Source: Clostridiales bacterium
GTDB taxonomy: Bacteria > Bacillota > Clostridia > Christensenellales > Borkfalkiaceae
Assembly: GCA_015055735.1 (NCBI GenBank)
Contig: SVHP01000003.1
Span: forward strand, 1 to 50,124
Length of the DNA stretch: 50,124 bases
Reading direction: 5' to 3'
A program made the translations under genes and the position numbers. The notes under the pieces were generated by a model, which worked only from the letters and a program-made list of their open reading frames with translations, did not search any database and was not told where the DNA came from. Positions 7,737 through 45,560 of this stretch are shown in pieces. Positions within the stretch are counted from its first letter, which is position 1. Every line of letters starts with the position of its first letter.

Positions 7737-8000
7737 CTATTTTATAAGCCCTGCCTCCGTAAGTTTAGTAATAAACGTTTGAACGTCCTTTCTTGCCATC
7801 TCTTCTTGTACTTCATACTCGCCTAGAAGAGCGTCCACTAAAGTTTGTTCATCTCCACCCTTTTCTAATTGACGCCATAAAAATGCGCCCGTTTCGTTTA
7901 AATTGATAATGCCGTTGAAATTTTTAACTGCTTGACCTACTGCCACCACGATATAGGTGTCCGCTACCTGTCTTAAAATAAATCCGTCTTTAATTTTCAC
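7737..8000 (-). CDS. PqqD-like peptide-recognition protein
   Basis: An 87-residue PqqD-family protein: a small winged-helix RiPP-recognition fold that normally binds a precursor-peptide leader and hands it to a modifying enzyme. The characteristic core is INLNETGAFLWRQLEKGGDE, followed by a helix ending TKLTEAGLIK. It overlaps the HprK-like gene by 11 bases, so the two are translationally coupled. No precursor peptide, radical-SAM enzyme or peptidase is seen nearby. PqqD/HprK-like pairs without biosynthetic genes do occur in clostridia, and their role there is not established. Confidence 0.85.
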   Translation of the reverse strand: MKIKDGFILRQVADTYIVVAVGQAVKNFNGIINLNETGAFLWRQLEKGGDEQTLVDALLGEYEVQEEMARKDVQTFITKLTEAGLIK

Positions 8001-8715
8001 TGTTCTTTTCTCCTTTTGACATTACGCTATATGAAAGTTCAGCTGCTTCTCTTGAAATAGTGCAACCCAAAGTATATAAATCCACGCTCCTTAACATTTT
8101 ATCAATAAGCTCGAACAACTTATCCACCTTTTCTACTTCGGTAGGTATTAAAGTTTGGTTCAATATGGTATGAAGCATTTCTTTGTTTGTAAGGCGCTTA
8201 ATAGAATTTTGCTTATCCTGATAAATCTTACAAATGGCTTTAATCTTGGCTCTAGTGTTGGTATCTAAATGATGCTTACCGTTCCAAGGCGTTCCGTAAA
8301 CGTAAAAATCGCCGTCCACGTACCTAATGATAGGCTTATCGTCGTTGACCATTATAGCCTTATCCCCTAACATCTCACGCCATAGTCTTGCGTGAGTAGA
8401 TTTACCCGTTCCACTTTGCGCCGTGAACAAATACGCCTCGTTATCGACCATTATAGCGCTACTGTGAAATACTATTGCGTTAGCGTTAATAAGTGCGTAA
8501 TCACACAACTTGCGATAGAGCGCCAAACTTTCAAGATAGTAGTCGGGGAACTGTTCCCCACCCTTTTTCTCGGCTTCTATATCTTGCTGTGTCATAACGG
8601 CTGTAAAACAAGGCTGTTCGTCGCCGTCGTAAATATAATTTTCACATAATTTTGCCGTATATCCGTACATGAGCTGTACGTCAAAAACTATATCGGCAAT
8701 CTTGTATCTTTGCAT
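7990..8715 (-). CDS. HPr kinase-like P-loop protein
   Basis: 241 residues related to the C-terminal catalytic half of HPr kinase/phosphorylase. The Walker A motif is SGTGKST (101-107) followed by HARLW, and an acidic NDDK (124-127) corresponds to the Asp-rich segment next to the nucleotide. The N-terminal HprK domain is absent, so this is not the carbon-catabolite HPr kinase. Homologues occur beside PqqD proteins in lasso-peptide and other RiPP loci. It is first in a two-gene unit with the PqqD-like gene. The substrate is unknown. Confidence 0.82.
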   Translation of the reverse strand: MQRYKIADIVFDVQLMYGYTAKLCENYIYDGDEQPCFTAVMTQQDIEAEKKGGEQFPDYYLESLALYRKLCDYALINANAIVFHSSAIMVDNEAYLFTAQSGTGKSTHARLWREMLGDKAIMVNDDKPIIRYVDGDFYVYGTPWNGKHHLDTNTRAKIKAICKIYQDKQNSIKRLTNKEMLHTILNQTLIPTEVEKVDKLFELIDKMLRSVDLYTLGCTISREAAELSYSVMSKGEKNSEN

Positions 8716-8914: not shown

Positions 8915-10009
8915 ATGATAAACCTATTAAAAAGAATTTCATCGTATCTAGCAATCATAATCTTTTTATGCTATACGCCTTTTCTTTTATCGTGCGCAAA
9001 AATTTACGATAGCGTCGAATACTCTTACTTTAACACCATAATCCGAGTGCAAGTAGAAGACAAAAAACTAACTTATGAAGTTAAAAGCCAATTATCCACC
9101 CTTTTTAGCCAACTTGAAAAGGATTTTGATAGAGAATATGAAAATTCTTTTATCTATAAATACAACGGTGCGAACGCTGGCGATATAATCGCCCTAAACG
9201 ACCACCAAGCGAGCGTATTGAACTATTCAAAGCAAGTAAACGAGTATTCTTCAGGGCTATTCAATCCTTCCATATATCCACTTCTCAAAGTTTGGCAATT
9301 TGCGCCAAACTACCCTGTAAAAGATTTTGTTAAACCTACTAACGAGCAAGTTTTAGACGCCTTAAAAAATGTTCCAAACTTTTCGGATATTCAATTTGAC
9401 AGTCAAAATAAAACCATCATAAAATACGGGCAATCACAACTAGACCTAGGTGGAATAGTTAAAGGCTACGCAGTAGATTTAGCAGGTAAAATTCTTAAAG
9501 ACAACGGCTATGAAAAGGGATACCTTTCAATAGGCGCTAGCAGTTTATATATTTTATGGTCAAACACTCTTTCTATTCGCAACCCTATTGAAACAAATCA
9601 AAATTTATTAGACGTAAATCTTTATTCACTAAACGATATTTCACTATCCACTAGTGGCGATTACGAAAAGTATTATATCGACAAAGATAGTGGCAAAAAA
9701 TATTCGCACGTTATAGATGCTAACACAGGTTATCCAACCACTACAGGCGTTAGGAGCGTGACCGTTATCGGTGGCGACGGTGCGTTTTCGGACGCCATAA
9801 CCACGGCTTGTTTATTGTTAGAACACAACTCTCTAACCCCCGACAACTCGCCATTAACCGAGTTCCTTAAAAAAATATTAGCCGATAAAAAGGCTAAAAT
9901 GGTTTTTGCAGTTTATTCTAAGGACGGAATAAACCAAATTATCACTAACGCAAAAAAGGGCGATGATTTCACCCTTTTAGATAATCAATTTCAAGTTATA
10001 AATATCTAA
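8915..10009 (+). CDS. apbE: ApbE-family FMN transferase lipoprotein
   Basis: A 364-residue secreted lipoprotein (lipobox LLSC, Cys27). ApbE enzymes attach FMN from FAD to Ser/Thr of extracytoplasmic redox proteins. The seen signatures are DLGGIVKGYAVD (flavin site) and SHVIDANTGYPT, matching the conserved H-x-I-x-x-x-T-G-x-P metal/substrate motif, with SDAITTACLLL near the C-terminus. AAAGGA precedes the ATG. It is a single plus-strand gene between two minus-strand units. No Rnf or NQR subunit that would be its target lies in the window. The older name, thiamine biosynthesis lipoprotein, is misleading. Confidence 0.9.
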   Translation: MINLLKRISSYLAIIIFLCYTPFLLSCAKIYDSVEYSYFNTIIRVQVEDKKLTYEVKSQLSTLFSQLEKDFDREYENSFIYKYNGANAGDIIALNDHQASVLNYSKQVNEYSSGLFNPSIYPLLKVWQFAPNYPVKDFVKPTNEQVLDALKNVPNFSDIQFDSQNKTIIKYGQSQLDLGGIVKGYAVDLAGKILKDNGYEKGYLSIGASSLYILWSNTLSIRNPIETNQNLLDVNLYSLNDISLSTSGDYEKYYIDKDSGKKYSHVIDANTGYPTTTGVRSVTVIGGDGAFSDAITTACLLLEHNSLTPDNSPLTEFLKKILADKKAKMVFAVYSKDGINQIITNAKKGDDFTLLDNQFQVINI

Positions 10010-10029: not shown

Positions 10030-10668
10030 TCATTTTATCATTTGCTCGAAAAGAATATTTTCGAGCATTTTTTGATCTTGATTTTGCTTTCTTATATCAA
10101 AAGTTATTTTCTTATCTTTCAAAATGATAATCCTATCGGCAAGATAAACGGCCTCTTTAATATCGTGAGTGACCAAAATAACCGTCTTATCCTTACAAAT
10201 ATCTTTGATTTTATCCATTAGATTATACTTTAGCTTTAAGTCTAAATTTATAAACGGCTCGTCAAAAAGATATGTTTGAGCGTCAAAAAGTAGCGCCCTT
10301 AATATTGCCACTCGCCTTTTCATACCTGCCGATAGCGTGTTTATATATGCATTTTCGTATTCACCAAGCCCTATTTCTTTTAAGGCTAGGCTAATATCGG
10401 CTTGCTTACAAACCAACTGCAAATTTTCTCTAACCGTCAAATTCTTAATTAACCTATCGTTTTGAAAAACAAAAGACACGGGATAAGTCATACCTGTAAT
10501 TTGACCTTTATACTCGACTAAATTTGCCAAAATTTTAAGTAGCGTGGTTTTGCCTTCTCCACTCTCGCCTAAAATAACGGTCGTTTCGCCCTTTAATATG
10601 TCTAGGTTAAAATTTTCATACCCGACCTTATCGTCGTAAGAAAAGTTTAAGTTTTTAATACTAATCAT
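10030..10668 (-). CDS. ABC importer ATP-binding subunit (NitT/TauT-type)
   Basis: A 212-residue ABC ATPase with Walker A GESGEGKTTLLK, Q-loop FVFQNDRLI, signature LSAGMKRR, Walker B TYLFDEPFINLD and H-loop LVTHDIKEAVYLAD. It belongs to the small SsuB/TauB/ThiZ-like group. The chosen ATG (10668) overlaps the permease stop as ATGA; another ATG two codons earlier (10674) is possible. It is the last gene of the three-gene importer operon. Confidence 0.9.
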   Translation of the reverse strand: MISIKNLNFSYDDKVGYENFNLDILKGETTVILGESGEGKTTLLKILANLVEYKGQITGMTYPVSFVFQNDRLIKNLTVRENLQLVCKQADISLALKEIGLGEYENAYINTLSAGMKRRVAILRALLFDAQTYLFDEPFINLDLKLKYNLMDKIKDICKDKTVILVTHDIKEAVYLADRIIILKDKKITFDIRKQNQDQKMLENILFEQMIK

Positions 10669-11420
10669 TGCCATTTACCCACCTTTTTGCAAATTAGCGA
10701 GAAAACGCCTTCAATAATTAAGCCCAGAATCACGGTCACTAACACTAACGCCATCATTGTTGCCGTTTGGTCGTAAAGTTTAGATAGTTGCAACAAATTG
10801 CCAAGCGAGTTAGCAGTGTATGCAAGCACTTCTGCAGCGACCATAAGTTTAAGATTTAACGATAACCCTGCCCCAATGGCAGATAAAATAGGTGGATATA
10901 TTTGTGGTAATTTAACCTTTAGCAAAATATCTTTACTCGAAACCCCAAACACCTTACACATTTCAATTTGGTCGTAATCTACGCTATCGAGTGCGCTTTT
11001 AACACTCAAATATAAGGTTGGGAACACCACTAAAAAGGTAACGAGTATTGGCGCTACAAACTCGTCAGTCCACACTCGTAAGAGTAAAACTACGGCAATA
11101 GTCGGCAACACCCTTATTATAGAAATTATAGGCGCAACGATTTTTGTAGCAACCTTTCGCCTATTGGTGATTAACGCTAGAATTAAAGCAAGCGAAAAGG
11201 AAAAGATAAAGGCTATTAAACTTCTCGATAGCGTTCCAAAAACGACACGGTAAAACTCAGCCTTACCTAGTAGGCTGAAAAATACCGAAACCGTTTGCGA
11301 AAAGGTAGGTAAAAGGTATGAATTATCGACCACTACGGCGACCGAACTCCATAATACGATTATGCAAACGATAGAAATTAATGGAAGAATAGCGTTTAAT
11401 AGTTTATCTTTATTTTTCAT
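10665..11420 (-). CDS. ABC importer permease (NitT/TauT-type)
   Basis: 251 residues with about six hydrophobic helices. It has the binding-protein-dependent permease EAA loop (VFGVSSKDILLKVKLPQIYP), which docks on the ATPase. It starts as TAATG, overlapping the stop of the binding-protein gene, and ends overlapping the ATPase gene. The family transports nitrate, sulfonates, taurine or thiamine precursors; nothing in the sequence fixes the substrate. Confidence 0.9.
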   Translation of the reverse strand: MKNKDKLLNAILPLISIVCIIVLWSSVAVVVDNSYLLPTFSQTVSVFFSLLGKAEFYRVVFGTLSRSLIAFIFSFSLALILALITNRRKVATKIVAPIISIIRVLPTIAVVLLLRVWTDEFVAPILVTFLVVFPTLYLSVKSALDSVDYDQIEMCKVFGVSSKDILLKVKLPQIYPPILSAIGAGLSLNLKLMVAAEVLAYTANSLGNLLQLSKLYDQTATMMALVLVTVILGLIIEGVFSLICKKVGKWQ

Positions 11421-12469
11421 TAGCTTACGATAGAATATTCAAAAGTATTTTTGCTTAAAACTGCTTTAAGTGTAAGATCGGGCACAAGACCTTTCCCGAT
11501 AACGCCTATTTTCTTGCCGTTTAAATCGTTTAGAGAAATTTGGGTATTTCCGTCCTTAGCCTTTGCCATAATATAAAGGTTGCCGTGCGTTAAAACGGAT
11601 ACCATTGTGTACTTTTGAGTTTTGTATAGTTTACTTGCAGCGTTAACAGGTAGTACGATAAAGTCAGCCTTTCCTAAAGCACCGTTCATGTACTTTGCGA
11701 TATCGTCGGCAACCACCACGCTATAATCAAAGCTTGCCCCCTCTACAAAATTTTCTCCGTCCGAAATAAACTTTGCAATAGATAAGGCAGGTGCGCCGTC
11801 TGGTGCGTAAAAGGTAAAGTTCTTACCGTTTACGTCGTTACCTACAAAGTTGTTTTCTAAATAAAAGAAATCGTCGTCAACGTTTACTGCAGGCGCTACG
11901 ATATCGCTATCGTTAACCGCTAAAATGTTTTGGATATAAGATTTAACTTGGTCTTTTGCGCTTTGAGCGTCTTGCCAACTAATCTTGCAATTATCTATAA
12001 CCGTTTGGTCGATAACGTTAGGATTTAGCGTTGAAGATGCAAAGTTGGTTTTAATAGCGCTAACGGCAAGGCTTGCGTTTTCACTCACCCACGTTGCGTT
12101 ATCGTTAAACTTTTCATGCATTTTTCTAACTATTTGTGGATAGTCTTGCAAAACGTCGTTCTTAACCATTAAAACGGCTTGTGGATAAGATTTAGTTTCA
12201 CTATCGTAAAGTTCTTTCAACGAAAGGCGTGTCCAAGTAAAGTTTTTGCCCTTAACCTTTTCTAAAGTGCTTGCAGCAGGCTCTGGCAATAAACCGAAAT
12301 CGAGAGTATCGTCTATTAGCAGTTGCATTATGGTTTGAGCATCGGTGTATTTTATACTTGCGCTTTTCTTGTCAATATCAGGTTTTGGCTCGTGGCTTAT
12401 GCAACCACTTGCAAACACGCTTGCTAATATGAATATTAGACTTAAAGTTAAATAAAAAATTCTTTTCAT
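11420..12469 (-). CDS. ABC importer substrate-binding lipoprotein, circularly permuted
   Basis: A 349-residue lipoprotein (lipobox ASGC) of the SsuA/NMT1-like binding-protein family, but with the two halves in reversed order. Residues about 38-210 (YTDAQTIMQLLIDD, then DFGLLPEPAAS, and ending DDDFFYLEN) correspond to what is normally the C-terminal half. After a short linker, about 218-349 (NFTFYAPDGAPALSIAKFI, then DFIVLPVNAASKLY, then LNDLNGKKIGVIGKG) correspond to the normal N-terminal half. The protein ends at SIVS, where a typical member would continue into the strand that here begins the mature protein. A proper signal peptide, a clean TAATG junction with the permease and no internal stop argue against an assembly or frameshift artefact. 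Ligand unknown. Confidence 0.85.
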   Translation of the reverse strand: MKRIFYLTLSLIFILASVFASGCISHEPKPDIDKKSASIKYTDAQTIMQLLIDDTLDFGLLPEPAASTLEKVKGKNFTWTRLSLKELYDSETKSYPQAVLMVKNDVLQDYPQIVRKMHEKFNDNATWVSENASLAVSAIKTNFASSTLNPNVIDQTVIDNCKISWQDAQSAKDQVKSYIQNILAVNDSDIVAPAVNVDDDFFYLENNFVGNDVNGKNFTFYAPDGAPALSIAKFISDGENFVEGASFDYSVVVADDIAKYMNGALGKADFIVLPVNAASKLYKTQKYTMVSVLTHGNLYIMAKAKDGNTQISLNDLNGKKIGVIGKGLVPDLTLKAVLSKNTFEYSIVS

Positions 12470-12670: not shown

Positions 12671-12925
12671 TTATTTGCGTTTGTTTTGATACTTTCTTTT
12701 AGTCGCTTCTCCACCCCTGATGTGCCGTTCGGCAAGGTTAAGGTTTAGCACTTTTTTAACTTTCATGTACAAATTTATATCTATAAAATACAGTCTATGC
12801 GAAACGTCCTTATGTACTGTAGACTTGCTAAAATGAAAAACTTTAGCAGTATCTCTTACCGTTGCCCCCGTTTCAACTATATATTCCCCTTCCTTTATCA
12901 CTCTATCAACGATGTCGTCACACAC
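12671..12925 (-). CDS. spoIIID: Sporulation transcriptional regulator SpoIIID
   Basis: An 84-residue DNA-binding protein that switches gene expression in the mother cell during sporulation. The family hallmarks are GEYIVETGATVRDTAKVF, the helix-turn-helix FSKSTVHKDVSHRL, and the C-terminal RHIRGGEATKRKY. The start codon is GTG with AGGGGG ten bases upstream. It sits alone between two other units. A sigma-E-like promoter lies 34-63 bases upstream, consistent with sigma-E control of spoIIID in Bacillus. Confidence 0.95.
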   Translation of the reverse strand: MCDDIVDRVIKEGEYIVETGATVRDTAKVFHFSKSTVHKDVSHRLYFIDINLYMKVKKVLNLNLAERHIRGGEATKRKYQNKRK

Positions 12926-13148: not shown

Positions 13149-15473
13149 ATGAAAAGAAAACTTGTAACGCTGTTTGCTTTATGCCTCGTTTTGTGCACAT
13201 TAACGTTTGGTTTAGTGGCTTGTGAGGAACATACACACGTTTACGACAAACAAGTTGTAAACGACACGTATTTAAGAAGCCAAGCTACGTGGACGGAAAA
13301 AGCAACCTACTATGTCTCATGTGAATGTGGAGAGAAAGGTACTGAATATTTTGAACATGGTGAATTATTAAAGAAAACTGCAACTGAAGGCTTAATGTTT
13401 GTATTAAACCTTTCGCAAACAAGCTATACTATAACTGATTATAACGGCAGTGCAACTAGCGTTTATATACCTGAAACTTATAACAATAAACCAGTCACTT
13501 CTATTGCCGATTGGGCTTTCTCTGGTTGCAATTTAATTAAAACCGTAGAAATTTCAGATAGCGTAACATCTATCGGCGATTGGGCTTTCTCTGGTTGCTC
13601 TTCATTAGAAACGATAAAACTTTCAAATAAGACGATTTCTGTTGGTGATTGGGCGTTCTTTGCTTGTGATTCATTGAAATCAATAGATATTCCAGATAAG
13701 GTTACTTCTATTAGCGATTTTACTTTTTATAACTGCTGTTCATTAAAAAGCGTAACGATTGGAGACAGCGTAACTACGATTGGTAAAGAAGCTTTCTCTG
13801 GTTGCTCTTCATTAAAAACAATAACTATTCCAAACACTGTAAAAACTATTGGCGATTGGGCATTCTATTATTGTACTGATTTGACAAGTGCAAAAATTGG
13901 AAACGTTTCTTCTATTGGCGAGTTTGCGTTCTATAAATGTAGTTCATTGTCAAACGTAACAATAGAAAAAGGCGTATCGTCTATTGGGTTTGGTACGTTT
14001 GAAGATTGTGATTCGTTAAAAAGTATAACCATTCCATTTGTAGGCGAAACTAAAAAAGAAACGGAAAACACACATTTTGGATATATATTCGGTGCAAATA
14101 GTTATTATTATAATAATGATTACGTGCCAACCTCATTAAAAACAGTAACAATAAGTGGTGGAAACTCAATTGATTCTTACGCATTCGATAATTGTGATTC
14201 ATTAACAAGCATAACTGTTCCAAGTAGCGTAACGACTATTGGTGATTTTGCTTTCTCTAATTGTAGTTCGTTAACGAGTATAAAAATCCCAAATAACGTA
14301 ACTGCCATTGGCGAAGGCGCTTTGCTCGGTTGTAATTCATTGACAAGTATAACAATTCCATTTGTAGGGACAGCTAAAACTGAAAGCACACATATTGGAT
14401 ATTTATTTGGCGCAGATAGTTATTCTTCTAATAATGATTACGTACCAGCTTCATTGAAAACGGTAGTAGTAACGGGTGGAACTTCAATTGCTTCACATGC
14501 GTTTGATAATTGTAACTCATTGACAAATATAACAATCCCAAATAGCGTAACGACTATTGGTGATAATGCTTTGTCAGGTTGTAATAAATTAACAAATATA
14601 ACGATTCCTTTTGTAGGTGCGGCTAAAACTGGTAGTCAAAATACATACCTTGGATATTTATTCGGTGCAGATAGTTATTCTTCTAACAACGATTACGTAC
14701 CGGCTTCTTTGAAAACAGTAGTAATTGCAGGTGGCCCTTCAATAGGCGCTCATGCATTCGATAATTGTGATTCATTGACGAGTATTACAATTTCAAACAA
14801 CGTATCGTCTATCGGTAATTTTGCTTTCGCTAACTGTGATTCATTGGCAAGTATAACAATTCCAAACAACGTAACTTCCATTGGTTCTAGCGCCTTCAAA
14901 GATTGTAGTTTATTAACTAATATAACCATTCCAAATAGTGTAACTTCTATTGGTTCTAGCGCATTTGAAGGTTGTAATACACTAGCTAATGTAACCATTG
15001 GAAAAGGTGTAGCGTCTATTGGTGAAAAAGCGTTCTATAATTGCTGTTTGTTAAAAAGCATAACAGTAGATCAAAATAATAAAAATTATAAATCAATAGA
15101 TGGAAACTTATACAGCAAAGATGAAAAGACTTTAGTACAATATGCAACGGCTAAAACTGCAAATTCATTTGTAATCTCAGACAACGTAACTACTATTGGC
15201 AGCTATTCGTTCTTTGGTTGTAACAGATTAACGAGCATAATAATAGGAAGTGGCGTAACTACTATTGATGAACATGCATTTGATGGTTGCAGTTCATTAA
15301 AAACCGTATATTACGTTGGACTATTAAAAAATTGGGTAAACATAGTAATTAACTCTGATAATCTCGAATTACTAAGTGCTAGAAGGTATTATTATATTGA
15401 AGAAGAATATTATTTACCAAATAACAACTACGAGTATTGGCACTACGTAAACGGTAAACCAAAAATTTGGTAA
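13149..15473 (+). CDS. BspA-like leucine-rich-repeat lipoprotein
   Basis: 774 residues. The signal peptide ends in a lipobox with Cys25 (GLVAC). Residues 27-75 are a short His/Cys module (HTHVYDKQVVNDTYLRSQAT), also found twice in the neighbouring paralogue; here its first Cys is replaced by Trp. About 25 LRR_5 units follow, each near 23 residues (pattern AF-x-C-SLTSITIPNSVTSIG). They are interrupted three times by a related insert with YLFGADSYSSNNDYVPASL near residues 300-345, 405-445 and 490-530. Such proteins are displayed on the surface and implicated in adhesion. AAGGAG precedes the ATG. It is tandem with a paralogue under a matching promoter. Confidence 0.9.
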   Translation: MKRKLVTLFALCLVLCTLTFGLVACEEHTHVYDKQVVNDTYLRSQATWTEKATYYVSCECGEKGTEYFEHGELLKKTATEGLMFVLNLSQTSYTITDYNGSATSVYIPETYNNKPVTSIADWAFSGCNLIKTVEISDSVTSIGDWAFSGCSSLETIKLSNKTISVGDWAFFACDSLKSIDIPDKVTSISDFTFYNCCSLKSVTIGDSVTTIGKEAFSGCSSLKTITIPNTVKTIGDWAFYYCTDLTSAKIGNVSSIGEFAFYKCSSLSNVTIEKGVSSIGFGTFEDCDSLKSITIPFVGETKKETENTHFGYIFGANSYYYNNDYVPTSLKTVTISGGNSIDSYAFDNCDSLTSITVPSSVTTIGDFAFSNCSSLTSIKIPNNVTAIGEGALLGCNSLTSITIPFVGTAKTESTHIGYLFGADSYSSNNDYVPASLKTVVVTGGTSIASHAFDNCNSLTNITIPNSVTTIGDNALSGCNKLTNITIPFVGAAKTGSQNTYLGYLFGADSYSSNNDYVPASLKTVVIAGGPSIGAHAFDNCDSLTSITISNNVSSIGNFAFANCDSLASITIPNNVTSIGSSAFKDCSLLTNITIPNSVTSIGSSAFEGCNTLANVTIGKGVASIGEKAFYNCCLLKSITVDQNNKNYKSIDGNLYSKDEKTLVQYATAKTANSFVISDNVTTIGSYSFFGCNRLTSIIIGSGVTTIDEHAFDGCSSLKTVYYVGLLKNWVNIVINSDNLELLSARRYYYIEEEYYLPNNNYEYWHYVNGKPKIW

Positions 15474-15501
15474 AAGAATAAATTTTAATGTTAAACGTAC
15501 A

Positions 15502-15540
15502 AAAGGCGTTGTGGATAATTCCACAACGCCTTTGTTATTC
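15502..15540 (+). terminator. Terminator after first BspA-like gene
   Basis: AAAGGCGTTGTGGA (15502-15515), TAAT, TCCACAACGCCTTT (15520-15533), then a T-rich run. A perfect 14-bp stem. Confidence 0.85.
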
Positions 15541-15581
15541 TTGTTATTTTATGCTAAATCCCAACCCTTTTTTAATATCCC

Positions 15582-15610
15582 TTGCATTTAAATTTTAAAA
15601 GTGCTATAAT
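15582..15610 (+). promoter_or_regulatory. Promoter of second BspA-like gene
   Basis: TTGCAT (15582-15587), 17 bp, TATAAT (15605-15610). It shares the TTGCATTTA and TAAAAGTG contexts with the promoter of the upstream paralogue. Confidence 0.6.
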
Positions 15611-15616
15611 ACATTT

Positions 15617-15790
15617 GCGACCAAACTTAATATTTCTTAAGATAATGTATACTTCTCGGGTAGGAGTGTATCTTTTTCGCATTACAAATCTTTATTTTAA
15701 GAAATATTGATGTAAGTTTGTGTCGCAGCAAGCGGAAATGGCATTTTTACTAGTGTCGTTTGCGTTTGCAAGCGACACTTTTTAATTTTA
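15617..15790 (+). promoter_or_regulatory. Structured 5' leader with terminator (attenuator candidate)
   Basis: A long closing helix joins GCGAC, AAACTTA and ATATTTCTTAA (15617-15640) to TTAAGAAATAT, TAAGTTT and GTCGC (15697-15726). A 12-bp terminator follows: AGTGTCGTTTGC (15752-15763) with GCAAGCGACACT (15768-15779), then TTTT. GCAAGCG at 15728-15734 can pair with CGTTTGC of the terminator's left arm, an antiterminator option. A 21-codon frame (15645-15710) runs through the loop but has no clear ribosome site. The rest of the interval has no gene. Confidence 0.55.
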
Positions 15791-15817
15791 AAAACTTTTT
15801 TAAGGAGACTATTTTAT

Positions 15818-17536
15818 ATGAACAAAAAACTTGTAACAATTTTAACTTTATGCTTTGTTTTATGCACGGCAATATGTGGCTTAACTGCTTGTAGCGAACA
15901 AGTACCAACCCATACCCACGTGTATAATCAAAAGGTTGTAAGCGACACTTACCTAAAAAGCCAAGCAACTTGCGAGCAAAAAGCATTGTACTATTACTCT
16001 TGCGAGTGCGGGGACGTTGGCAGTGTTGCTTTTGAAAACGGTGATTTTAATGAGTGTAATTTTGTTGCTGGCAAATGTAGCGTATGCGAAAAACCTTATC
16101 CAAATTCTGGAAATGACCAAACACAAAATTCCCATACCCACGTGTATAATCAAAAGGTTGTAAGCGACACTTACCTAAAAAGCCAAGCAACTTGTACCCA
16201 AAAAGCAATTTATTATTACGTTTGCGAGTGTGGGGACGTTGGTAGCAACACTTTTGAAAGCGGTGATTTTGGTAAACACGAATACGGCGCATTCAAGAAT
16301 AACGGCAATGGCACTCATACCAAAACTTGCATAAACCATAGCGAGCATACTATAACCGAAAAGTGCTATGGCGGACAAGCAACTTGCAGAGAAAAAGCAA
16401 CTTGTTTGGGCTGTAATGCAAAGTATGGCGAATTAGAAGAGCATACTTATAGTAAAGAATATTCAACTTCTGATACCCACCATTGGTATGATTCAACTTG
16501 TGGTTGCAACTTGAAAAAAGATTACGCTGAACATGTTATAGGCGAAGATAATTGTTGTGAAACATGTTCTATCCCTATGTCTTCAACTATTGGCGTTATT
16601 TACGATACTTCTAGCGACGGAACTTATGCAGAAGTTGTTGGTTACGAAGGGACTTCAAAAAAAGTAAAAATAGCCGATACTTATAACGGCTTGCCTGTAA
16701 AAACTATTTATGATAATGCATTTTTTCATAATACTAATATCACTATGGTTATTATCCCAGATACTGTAACATCTATTGGCAGTTTTGCGTTCCAAAGTTG
16801 CGATTCATTAACAAGTATAACAATCCCAGATAGTGTAACTTCTATTAGTGACTATGCGTTCCAAAGTTGCAGTTCATTAACAAGTATAACAATCCCAGAT
16901 AGTGTAACTAATATTGGTGATAGTACGTTCGAATATTGCAATTCATTAACAAGTGTAACAATAGGAGACGGTGTAACTTCTATTGGTAGTAGTGCGTTCG
17001 CAGATTGCCCATATACCGTAAGTGGAAATTTAAAATACGTTGGAAACGAAGATAACCCTTATTTAGTGCTAGTCGGCACTGCAAATGCAAACTTATCAAC
17101 CTATACTATAAATGAAAATACAAAATATATTTCTAACGCCTTTTCAAGTTGTTCTCGCTTATCAACTATAACAATCCCAGATAGTGTAACTTCTATTGGT
17201 AATAATGCGTTCTATACTTGCGATTCATTAACAAGTATAACAATCCCAGATAGTGTAACTTCTATTAGTGAATATGCTTTCTTGGATTGCGATTCATTAA
17301 CAAGTGTAACAATCCCAGATAGTGTAACTTCTATTGGTGATTATGCGTTCGGATATTGCACTTCATTAACAAGTATAATAATCCCAGATAGTGTAACTTC
17401 TATTGGTGATTATGCGTTCTATTGTTGCAGTTCATTAGAAACAATTTATTGCGAAGCAGAAAGTAAGCCAAGTGGTTGGGATAGTTCTTGGAAGAGTAAC
17501 TGCAACGCACAAGTTGTTTGGGGATACAAAGTCTAG
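15818..17536 (+). CDS. BspA-like leucine-rich-repeat lipoprotein, paralogue
   Basis: A 572-residue secreted lipoprotein (Cys25 after GLTA). Residues about 30-260 are Cys/His-rich modules: two copies of HTHVYNQKVVSDTYLKSQAT, then CxxC- and HxH-containing segments (CYGGQATCREKATCLGC, and later CCETC) that could bind metal or form disulfides. Residues about 260-560 are LRR_5 units (SITIPDSVTSIGDYAF type), with a non-repeat insert around 405-445. It ends KSNCNAQVVWGYKV, a common cap in this family. AAGGAG precedes the ATG. Signal peptide, promoter and terminator all resemble those of the upstream gene, so the pair arose by duplication. Confidence 0.9.
   Translation: MNKKLVTILTLCFVLCTAICGLTACSEQVPTHTHVYNQKVVSDTYLKSQATCEQKALYYYSCECGDVGSVAFENGDFNECNFVAGKCSVCEKPYPNSGNDQTQNSHTHVYNQKVVSDTYLKSQATCTQKAIYYYVCECGDVGSNTFESGDFGKHEYGAFKNNGNGTHTKTCINHSEHTITEKCYGGQATCREKATCLGCNAKYGELEEHTYSKEYSTSDTHHWYDSTCGCNLKKDYAEHVIGEDNCCETCSIPMSSTIGVIYDTSSDGTYAEVVGYEGTSKKVKIADTYNGLPVKTIYDNAFFHNTNITMVIIPDTVTSIGSFAFQSCDSLTSITIPDSVTSISDYAFQSCSSLTSITIPDSVTNIGDSTFEYCNSLTSVTIGDGVTSIGSSAFADCPYTVSGNLKYVGNEDNPYLVLVGTANANLSTYTINENTKYISNAFSSCSRLSTITIPDSVTSIGNNAFYTCDSLTSITIPDSVTSISEYAFLDCDSLTSVTIPDSVTSIGDYAFGYCTSLTSIIIPDSVTSIGDYAFYCCSSLETIYCEAESKPSGWDSSWKSNCNAQVVWGYKV
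15909..15972 (+). repeat. 64-bp direct repeat, copy 1 (within BspA-like gene)
   Basis: Identical by eye to 16131-16194. It encodes the N-terminal His/Cys module, so the second module came from a recent in-gene duplication or is kept identical by gene conversion. Confidence 0.9.
16131..16194 (+). repeat. 64-bp direct repeat, copy 2
   Basis: Second copy of 15909-15972. Sequence after the repeat diverges (tgcgagc versus tgtaccc). Confidence 0.9.
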
Positions 17537-37847: not shown

Positions 37848-38003
37848 TTAATCGATACCTCCTTATTTTAATGAAAAAGCCCTTATATCCGAAACGAATA
37901 TAAGGGCATAAAATTAGCCTTAAAAATATTCGCCTCGGTTGGTCTGCCTAAAAAGTTTTAAGCAAGTTAACACCTACTGTCTTGGGCTATTTAATTTTTA
38001 CTT
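37848..38003 (-). promoter_or_regulatory. L10 leader (autoregulatory ribosomal leader)
   Basis: About 150 bases between the promoter and rplJ contain AAGACAGTAGGTG and GGCAGACCAACCGAGGCG, resembling conserved parts of the Firmicutes L10 leader. A perfect terminator, GCCCTTATAT (37879-37888) with ATATAAGGGC (37898-37907) and a T run, follows. Binding of L10-L12 to the leader is known to favour termination. Confidence 0.88.
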
Positions 38004-38007
38004 TGAA

Positions 38008-45432: not shown

Positions 45433-45509
45433 TCGCCGTCAGGCGAATATAACTGCCGAAAGGCAATATCACTCGTCGTTAGACGAATATCACAAATCCG
45501 TAAGGATTT
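45433..45509 (+). repeat. Array of four variable-stem hairpins with constant spacer
   Basis: TCGCC-GTCA-GGCGA, spacer ATATAAC, TGCC-GAAA-GGCA, spacer ATATCAC, TCGTC-GTTA-GACGA, spacer ATATCAC, AAATCC-GTAA-GGATTT. Stems are all different and fully complementary, loops follow G-N-N-A, and spacers are 7 nt and nearly identical. The period is about 20 bp. Confidence 0.75.
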
Positions 45510-45560
45510 ATTTAGTTGTCGCAATTCCCTAAGGGAAGAGCGACTATCGGGCTTTTTTCT

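Follow-up and report, generated by a model that had tools for sequence, protein, structure and literature searches.

A circularly permuted binding lipoprotein is encoded in a 50,124-nucleotide stretch of DNA (the window) from a Clostridiales bacterium of the family Borkfalkiaceae (GenBank assembly GCA_015055735.1, contig SVHP01000003.1, positions 1 to 50,124). With a probability of about 0.87, we read the gene as the lipoprotein binding subunit of an NMT1/SsuA-like ATP-binding cassette (ABC) importer that is circularly permuted, retains the fold and ligand delivery of the normal form, and is one case of a recurrent rotation that most likely arose by duplication followed by trimming. The gene and its parts are as follows.

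11420..12469, minus strand: circularly permuted lipoprotein substrate-binding protein, 349 amino acids, in the order signal peptide, B, linker, A (placed by profiles)
12401..12469, minus strand: signal peptide and lipobox, residues 1-23
11861..12361, minus strand: segment B, the old C-terminal half, residues 37-203
11819..11860, minus strand: linker of 14 residues (204-217, LENNFVGNDVNGKN) between the former C- and N-termini
11423..11818, minus strand: segment A (residues 218-349), the former N-terminal half; the helix LTLKAVLS and a predicted strand at 343-348 come just before its end

The open reading frame (ORF) is intact, with an ATG start, a lipobox cysteine at residue 23 and a stop codon that overlaps the start of the permease gene. 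Its product carries TLDFGLLPEPAAS near the N-terminus and DDDFFYLEN in mid-chain, followed by the linker, FTFYAPDGAPALS and, near the C-terminus, LNDLNGKKIGVIGKG. Profiles for halves A and B, made from permuted and normal-order relatives, placed half B on residues 39-203 (197 bits) and half A on residues 218-339 (156 bits). When aligned to a normal-order profile of 297 positions, the window protein reads 135-296 and then 1-124. A preliminary description of this DNA had proposed a circular permutation in which a short linker joins the old termini; both proposals are borne out by these placements, and the motif positions that it gave were confirmed by the ORF reading and the half-profiles. Curated families matched in the same manner, as positions 60-119 of NMT1 (PF09084, Pfam) fell on residues 284-345 and positions 175-228 of SsuA_fam (TIGR01728, NCBIfam) on residues 89-140. 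The whole protein scored under both curated cut-offs (19.8 of 20.5 bits for PF09084 and 24.7 of 163.5 for TIGR01728), as would be expected from the rotated order. Judging from these matches, the window protein resembles NMT1/SsuA-like type II binding proteins in both halves, and the identity of segment A to normal-order proteins of the genus was 41-60%. A protein search of its own genome (67 contigs, 76% complete) returned a single gene, and the permuted profile counted a second, weaker match. A sequence search of the PDB with the window protein gave three matches with E values of 1 or worse, none of them a binding protein.

The swapped order was not confined to the window. A protein search of 44 genomes of the genus matched 42, of which 14 carry the permuted and 26 the normal order (including a fragment in G008); G021 and G051 hold undecidable fragments, and nothing in G017 or G059 matched at E 0.001. 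All 14 permuted proteins share one breakpoint, ending soon after the helix LTLKAVL and beginning, past the lipobox, with a strand of the type VxLKYY; the lipobox cysteine is invariant in all of them. Chance does not explain the swapped order, which 14 of the 44 genomes share together with its breakpoint. These orthologues had been suggested as a check in the preliminary description, and their common breakpoint also upholds its view that the break splits the usual second-lobe segment into its two halves, where we take the residues of lobe II to be those of the SsuA fold. One normal-order member of the genus is the public record 'Christensenella sp. UBA1259'. An alignment-based scan of public genomes yielded 80 loci (13 permuted, 64 normal and 3 cut off). 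Twelve of the 13 permuted loci were already in our genus set and one (L092) was additional; titles of the public records name goat, sheep, yak, buffalo, reindeer and other hosts and several isolate series. When a scan was based on the window protein only, none of its 32 pattern matches was a relative. As a separate observation, the permuted gene is not the only copy in G020, where a distant paralogue in normal order lies on a different contig (L078, G020:C36, 5768-6742).

Permuted orthologues also occur elsewhere in the order, a group of gut Clostridia that is probably Christensenellales of the GTDB. The permuted profile matched 297 of the 396 genomes searched, with single-piece matches in other genera and families (labels such as f1g359 denote family f1 and genus g359 within the order). 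Four breakpoints, expressed as positions on the 297-position normal-order profile, were confirmed at the loci. S1, the site used by the window protein, lies near 124/127 and was found in 48 proteins (f1g1, g18, g20, g21, g359, f24g64 and f3g67); S2, near 171/173 and after LLPEPAAS, in 18 (f1g19, f1g20, f32g38, f32g87 and f32g128); S3, near 86/88, in four (f32g75); and S4, near 19/28, in one (f3g141); these counts are not frequencies, as the classified rows were mostly best matches of the permuted profile. G1085, whose gene is cut at a contig end, was reassigned from S3 to S2. S2, S3 and S4 lie in loops of the normal-order structure model, and the S1 profile boundaries flank a three-residue strand and the loop that follows it. 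As the window protein retains this strand at its very end (343-348), the S1 cut is best placed in that loop. Among the single-piece matches listed, at least 56 of 301 genomes of family f1 carry a permuted gene; the numbers were 5 of 43 in f3 (four S1 and one S4) and 10 of 74 in f32 (six S2 and four S3). In a sample of the class (391 genomes, 136 matched), no single-piece match across the old junction was found outside the order among the matches listed, and the class genomes outside the order that had both halves among those matches carry the normal order. The preliminary description had allowed that the swapped order might be the standard of a separate family, which fits neither this result nor the normal-order orthologues in 26 of the 44 genus genomes.

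Gene trees were used to count changes of topology. A 147-row tree, with G1037 and G008 left out and six rows each kept of f32g106 and f3g40, required 19 changes among five states; S1 needs 12, of which 10 are forced by starred branches, and S2 needs five, four of them forced. A careful 76-row tree of f1 with thinned rows required 13 changes, eight forced for S1 and two for S2, and a single S1 clade in f1 was rejected (p 1.7e-71). Within the genus, the permuted form needs five changes on the gene tree with outgroups, 10 on a tree of five neighbour genes (shuffled mean 11.7) and nine on a quick rpoB tree (shuffled mean 11.0). The gene tree was built without the G008 fragment, and G021, G051, G017 and G059 had no usable row; the neighbour-gene tree left out G020b, G008, G033, G039, G029, G026, G027 and G025, which had too few neighbour genes; and the rpoB tree lacked rows for G012, G055 and G017 and contained five rows with fewer than half of the columns. 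A single clade for all 14 permuted genus genes was rejected (p 1.2e-74) in a test that left out G008, G039, G026, G027 and G025. One clean clade of permuted genes was thus rejected on both the full genus set and the f1 set. These data support at least two origins inside the genus, and no more than that.

Two genomes bear on how the permuted form moves. G001 and G058 group with normal-order species by neighbour genes and by rpoB, and have signal peptides and flanks like those of their normal-order neighbours; the bodies of their binding proteins are permuted. DNA of G058 is 88% identical to that of the normal-order G057 over 775 bp up to the lipobox, after which the bodies differ in order and the identity then returns at 76%. 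This pattern speaks for replacement of the binding-protein body between relatives at one locus.

A similar junction at the S1 site is kept by most normal-order proteins and by S2 and S3 proteins of several families, which indicates that the normal order is probably older and that S1 was gained repeatedly. Genus f3g67 is an exception, as its four normal-order genes have a short junction in place of the usual one. Sister species carry opposite forms (G843/G833 vs G811/G851). In f1g359, the permuted G843 and the normal-order G811 share 85.5% upstream DNA identity over 559 bp and 67.3% downstream over about 890 bp, including the permease gene; between these flanks lie two matching blocks, of 487 bp (75.6% identity) and 323 bp (76.1%), whose order is swapped. 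Normal and permuted orthologues recur across the order, and the alignments and trees indicate that the window gene is one rotation among many rather than an isolated case. A normal-order gene of G305 (L227, 4312-5295) carries DSVFYDASAASEKGGGSG near the N-terminus after its lipobox. This stretch resembles the old C-terminus and linker of its permuted sisters, and by that likeness appears to be a trace of a permuted or tandem ancestor.

Two other families of binding proteins, MetQ (PF03180) and amino-acid binders (PF00497), served as controls and were searched in 151 genomes of the order. MetQ matched in 39, of which four (G121, G139, G100 and G181) contain a permuted protein that reads the profile from about 95 to 236 and then from 1 to 95 within one ORF, with a break near profile position 95. 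Against five one-piece MetQ proteins, all four gave swapped BLASTP matches, which confirms the order, and two also gave two stretches in the Pfam scan. In the class sample, 15 of the 161 matching genomes, all 15 of them outside the order (e.g. G436, G442, G506, G546 and G661), gave two or three MetQ matches at roughly half strength (best E 1e-42 to 1e-52), a pattern that may point to permuted MetQ. PF00497 matched in at least 113 of the 151 genomes, and 16 loci with partial matches were read. Swapped BLASTP matches identified three of these (L381, L386 and L387) as permuted; L373, L378, L379 and L384 seem, on visual comparison with the usual order, to be permuted, although BLASTP gave no swapped pair; L374-L377 have the normal order; and the remaining five were left unjudged because the chosen ORF was not a binding protein. 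Confinement of permutation to one family was therefore rejected, as MetQ and PF00497 both hold permuted members.

The PF00497 search also returned two fused arrays. L388 (G165:C66, 1845-5609, plus strand) encodes 1255 amino acids with five PF00497 stretches and a PF00528 permease domain, and L389 (G123:C2, 905-3958, minus strand) encodes 1018 amino acids with three PF00497 stretches and a PF00528 permease domain. We take such tandem binding domains fused to a permease to be GlnPQ-like. In contrast to GlnPQ-like fusions, the L388 array is in rotated phase by BLASTP, starting at a second-lobe segment and ending with a first-lobe segment before the permease. Rotated-phase tandem arrays support duplication and trimming without proving it. 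Type II binding proteins seem to have been rotated recurrently in this clade. We think it somewhat probable that type II binding lipoproteins as a class rotate recurrently in this order, in at least three families, at four or more break loops and in more than 12 independent events; tandem fused arrays would then act as the common source out of which proteins of different phase are cut, leaving the anchor point evolutionarily free.

The structure model of the window protein is a confident one, from which we infer that the fold is that of the normal form. Structural matches were obtained for the model of an orthologue; the best were type II proteins, no search having been aimed at type I, and among the matches are proteins that bind sulfonates, taurine, pyrroloquinoline quinone, or thiamine or its precursor. 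The match lists for the permuted model contain sequential matches only, so that the absence of a family from them carries no weight. The window protein would thus form the same two-lobed trap, binding its ligand between the lobes, with the chain opened at a second-lobe loop and the linker bridging the former termini. A short spacer would tether it to the membrane by lobe II instead of lobe I, and by other points in S2-S4 proteins. Docked on a permease that has not changed, it would pass its ligand to a permease and ATPase of the kind that serves the normal form. Among the classified loci with checkable downstream DNA, all 70 permuted and all 98 normal-order ones have a permease gene immediately after the binding-protein gene, and this holds in sister species of either form. 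Its retention beside both forms speaks against a large change in docking, at least as far as gene order can tell. As both forms have an adjacent permease in sister species, the position of the anchor may be nearly neutral. In the most likely route to rotation at a few permitted loops, the mature domain would be duplicated in tandem and the copies fused in frame, after which each copy would lose one end.

Several points weigh against the reading given at the outset. No fused double copy of this family was present among 232 matching ORFs in the loci examined, and the L388 and L389 arrays belong to another family (PF00497). The 147-row tree was a quick one, with support from the Shimodaira-Hasegawa-like approximate likelihood ratio test (SH-aLRT) only. 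The fold is read from a structure model with structural matches in sequential order, and the transport function proposed for the permuted protein is based on sequence. The named source records are metagenome-assembled genomes (MAGs), and the genomes are fragmented into many contigs. With G048 set aside, one clade for the 13 remaining permuted genus genes was borderline (p 0.046 with outgroups and 0.054 without). In a follow-up clade test, which also left out G029, G033, G020b and G048, one genus clade became acceptable when G014 was left out too (p 0.36). As one genus origin for 13 of the 14 genes was not clearly rejected, horizontal spread probably explains part of the patchiness.

Gene fission followed by re-fusion in the other order, rather than tandem duplication and trimming, is an unlikely route. 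A two-ORF gene in G1037 is split exactly at S1, as fission would predict; however, the residue at the split is ambiguous and a comparable defect occurs in G1036, so that it looks like an assembly flaw, and we rejected it as a natural split. In addition, the linker often retains the old C-terminus and then continues with residues that resemble a spacer, which a fused second copy would be expected to leave.

We consider it quite unlikely that S1 arose once, in an ancient permutation that was spread by horizontal transfer and undone by reversion. Transfer between species does occur, as the permuted form needs nine changes on the rpoB tree and five on the gene tree, and the permuted bodies between normal-like signal peptides and flanks in G001 and G058 are in keeping with this, as is the acceptable clade obtained with G014 set aside. 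The four f3g67 normal-order genes with the short junction suggest reversion or a shared tandem ancestor. However, the gene tree itself requires 12 changes for S1 and five for S2, a count to which transfer adds nothing, and one clade for all S1 genes of f1 was rejected. Reversion would also need to recreate the junction that most normal-order genes share with S2 and S3 proteins, and four different breakpoints are incompatible with one event.

It is very improbable that the permuted gene is decaying, or has been repurposed and no longer serves the importer. Some permuted bodies diverge more than their permeases do (G001 vs G004: A 59, B 49 and permease 80% identity), but the ORFs are without internal stops in all 14 permuted genus genomes, the ratio of nonsynonymous to synonymous substitution rates (dN/dS) was 0.08-0.23 in four of five permuted pairs, the fifth being saturated at synonymous sites, and every permuted locus that could be checked (70 of 70) has the downstream permease. 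An assembly or binning artefact, which the preliminary description had already discounted, is hardly credible despite the MAG sources and many contigs, because intact ORFs with signal peptide, lipobox and adjacent permease, the same order in 13 public MAGs with titles naming several host animals and isolate series, the lack of any N in the 14 permuted loci checked, and the DNA blocks swapped within matching flanks all speak against it.

Treponema pallidum is known to have a tethered binding lipoprotein of an ABC importer that is circularly permuted in nature; this protein, TpMglB-2 (Tp0684), binds ligand in vitro, has relatives in Gram-positive gut bacteria and is proposed to represent 'Type Ic / Cluster Bc' binding proteins (PMC4990184). 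The window protein is like it in being circularly permuted relative to close homologues. However, TpMglB-2 is described there as a type I (galactose/glucose-binding) protein, with a single rearranged topology and one additional crossing of the hinge (PMC4990184), whereas the proteins described here belong to type II families, use several breakpoints and occur in both forms within one genus. The window protein differs from NMT1/THI5-like and SsuA/TauA/ThiY-type proteins (PF09084, TIGR01728; structures 3hn0, 2x26, 6ssy and 9b1u PqqT) in its rotated chain order; MetQ/NlpA (PF03180) and PF00497 proteins, also permuted in this order, are separate families. A literature search covering titles and abstract openings gave no recognizable report of permuted NMT1/SsuA-like, MetQ or amino-acid binders, nor of recurrent rotation within one binding-protein family, and TpMglB-2 was the sole natural permuted binding protein noticed there. 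Measured against those titles and openings, a permuted binding lipoprotein as such is already known; the type II families appear to be new, as does the recurrence, which is unusual.

Natural circular permutations are usually rare, old and one-off, with their intermediates lost. Here both forms occur in sister species, many times and with several breakpoints, providing matched natural pairs in which protein rotation in nature and its functional effect become directly testable. Such importer proteins receive low scores or are split in profile searches, and the tether position of a binding protein seems not to be fixed by function.

The neighbours of the window gene are as follows.

10665..11420, minus strand: ABC importer permease (BPD_transp_1, PF00528, Pfam), whose start overlaps the binding-protein stop (TAATG)
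10030..10674, minus strand: ABC importer ATPase (PF00005, Pfam)
12671..12925, minus strand: SpoIIID gene, the usual upstream neighbour and a synteny marker
8915..10009, plus strand: ApbE (FAD:protein FMN transferase, Pfam), the usual convergent neighbour
7737..8715, minus strand: PqqD-like gene (PF05402) and HPrK-like gene (named by eye, no Pfam match), usual neighbours

The window locus thus combines a lipoprotein signal with downstream PF00528 and PF00005 genes. In 23 genus loci read in detail (eight permuted and 15 normal), the permease was present in 23 and SpoIIID in 20; the ApbE, HPrK-like and PqqD-like genes were usually next, and the ATPase was present in some loci but not in all. An ATPase ORF was not recognized directly after the permease in G016, G009, G010, G015 and G020 (L040, L043, L034, L037 and L033), and these importers may use an ATPase encoded elsewhere.

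Other features of the window were also recorded. Beside the importer, at 13149-17536 (plus strand), lie two large proteins with leucine-rich BspA-like repeats, a type assigned by eye. A ribosomal protein L10 leader at 37864-38004 (minus strand) and a Gut-1 RNA at 45442-45518 (minus strand) scored over the Rfam gathering score. At the very end of the contig (2-112, minus strand), Rfam STnc490, described as an Hfq-binding small RNA, scored 57.8 against a gathering cut-off of 56, a match that is unexpected in such a genome.
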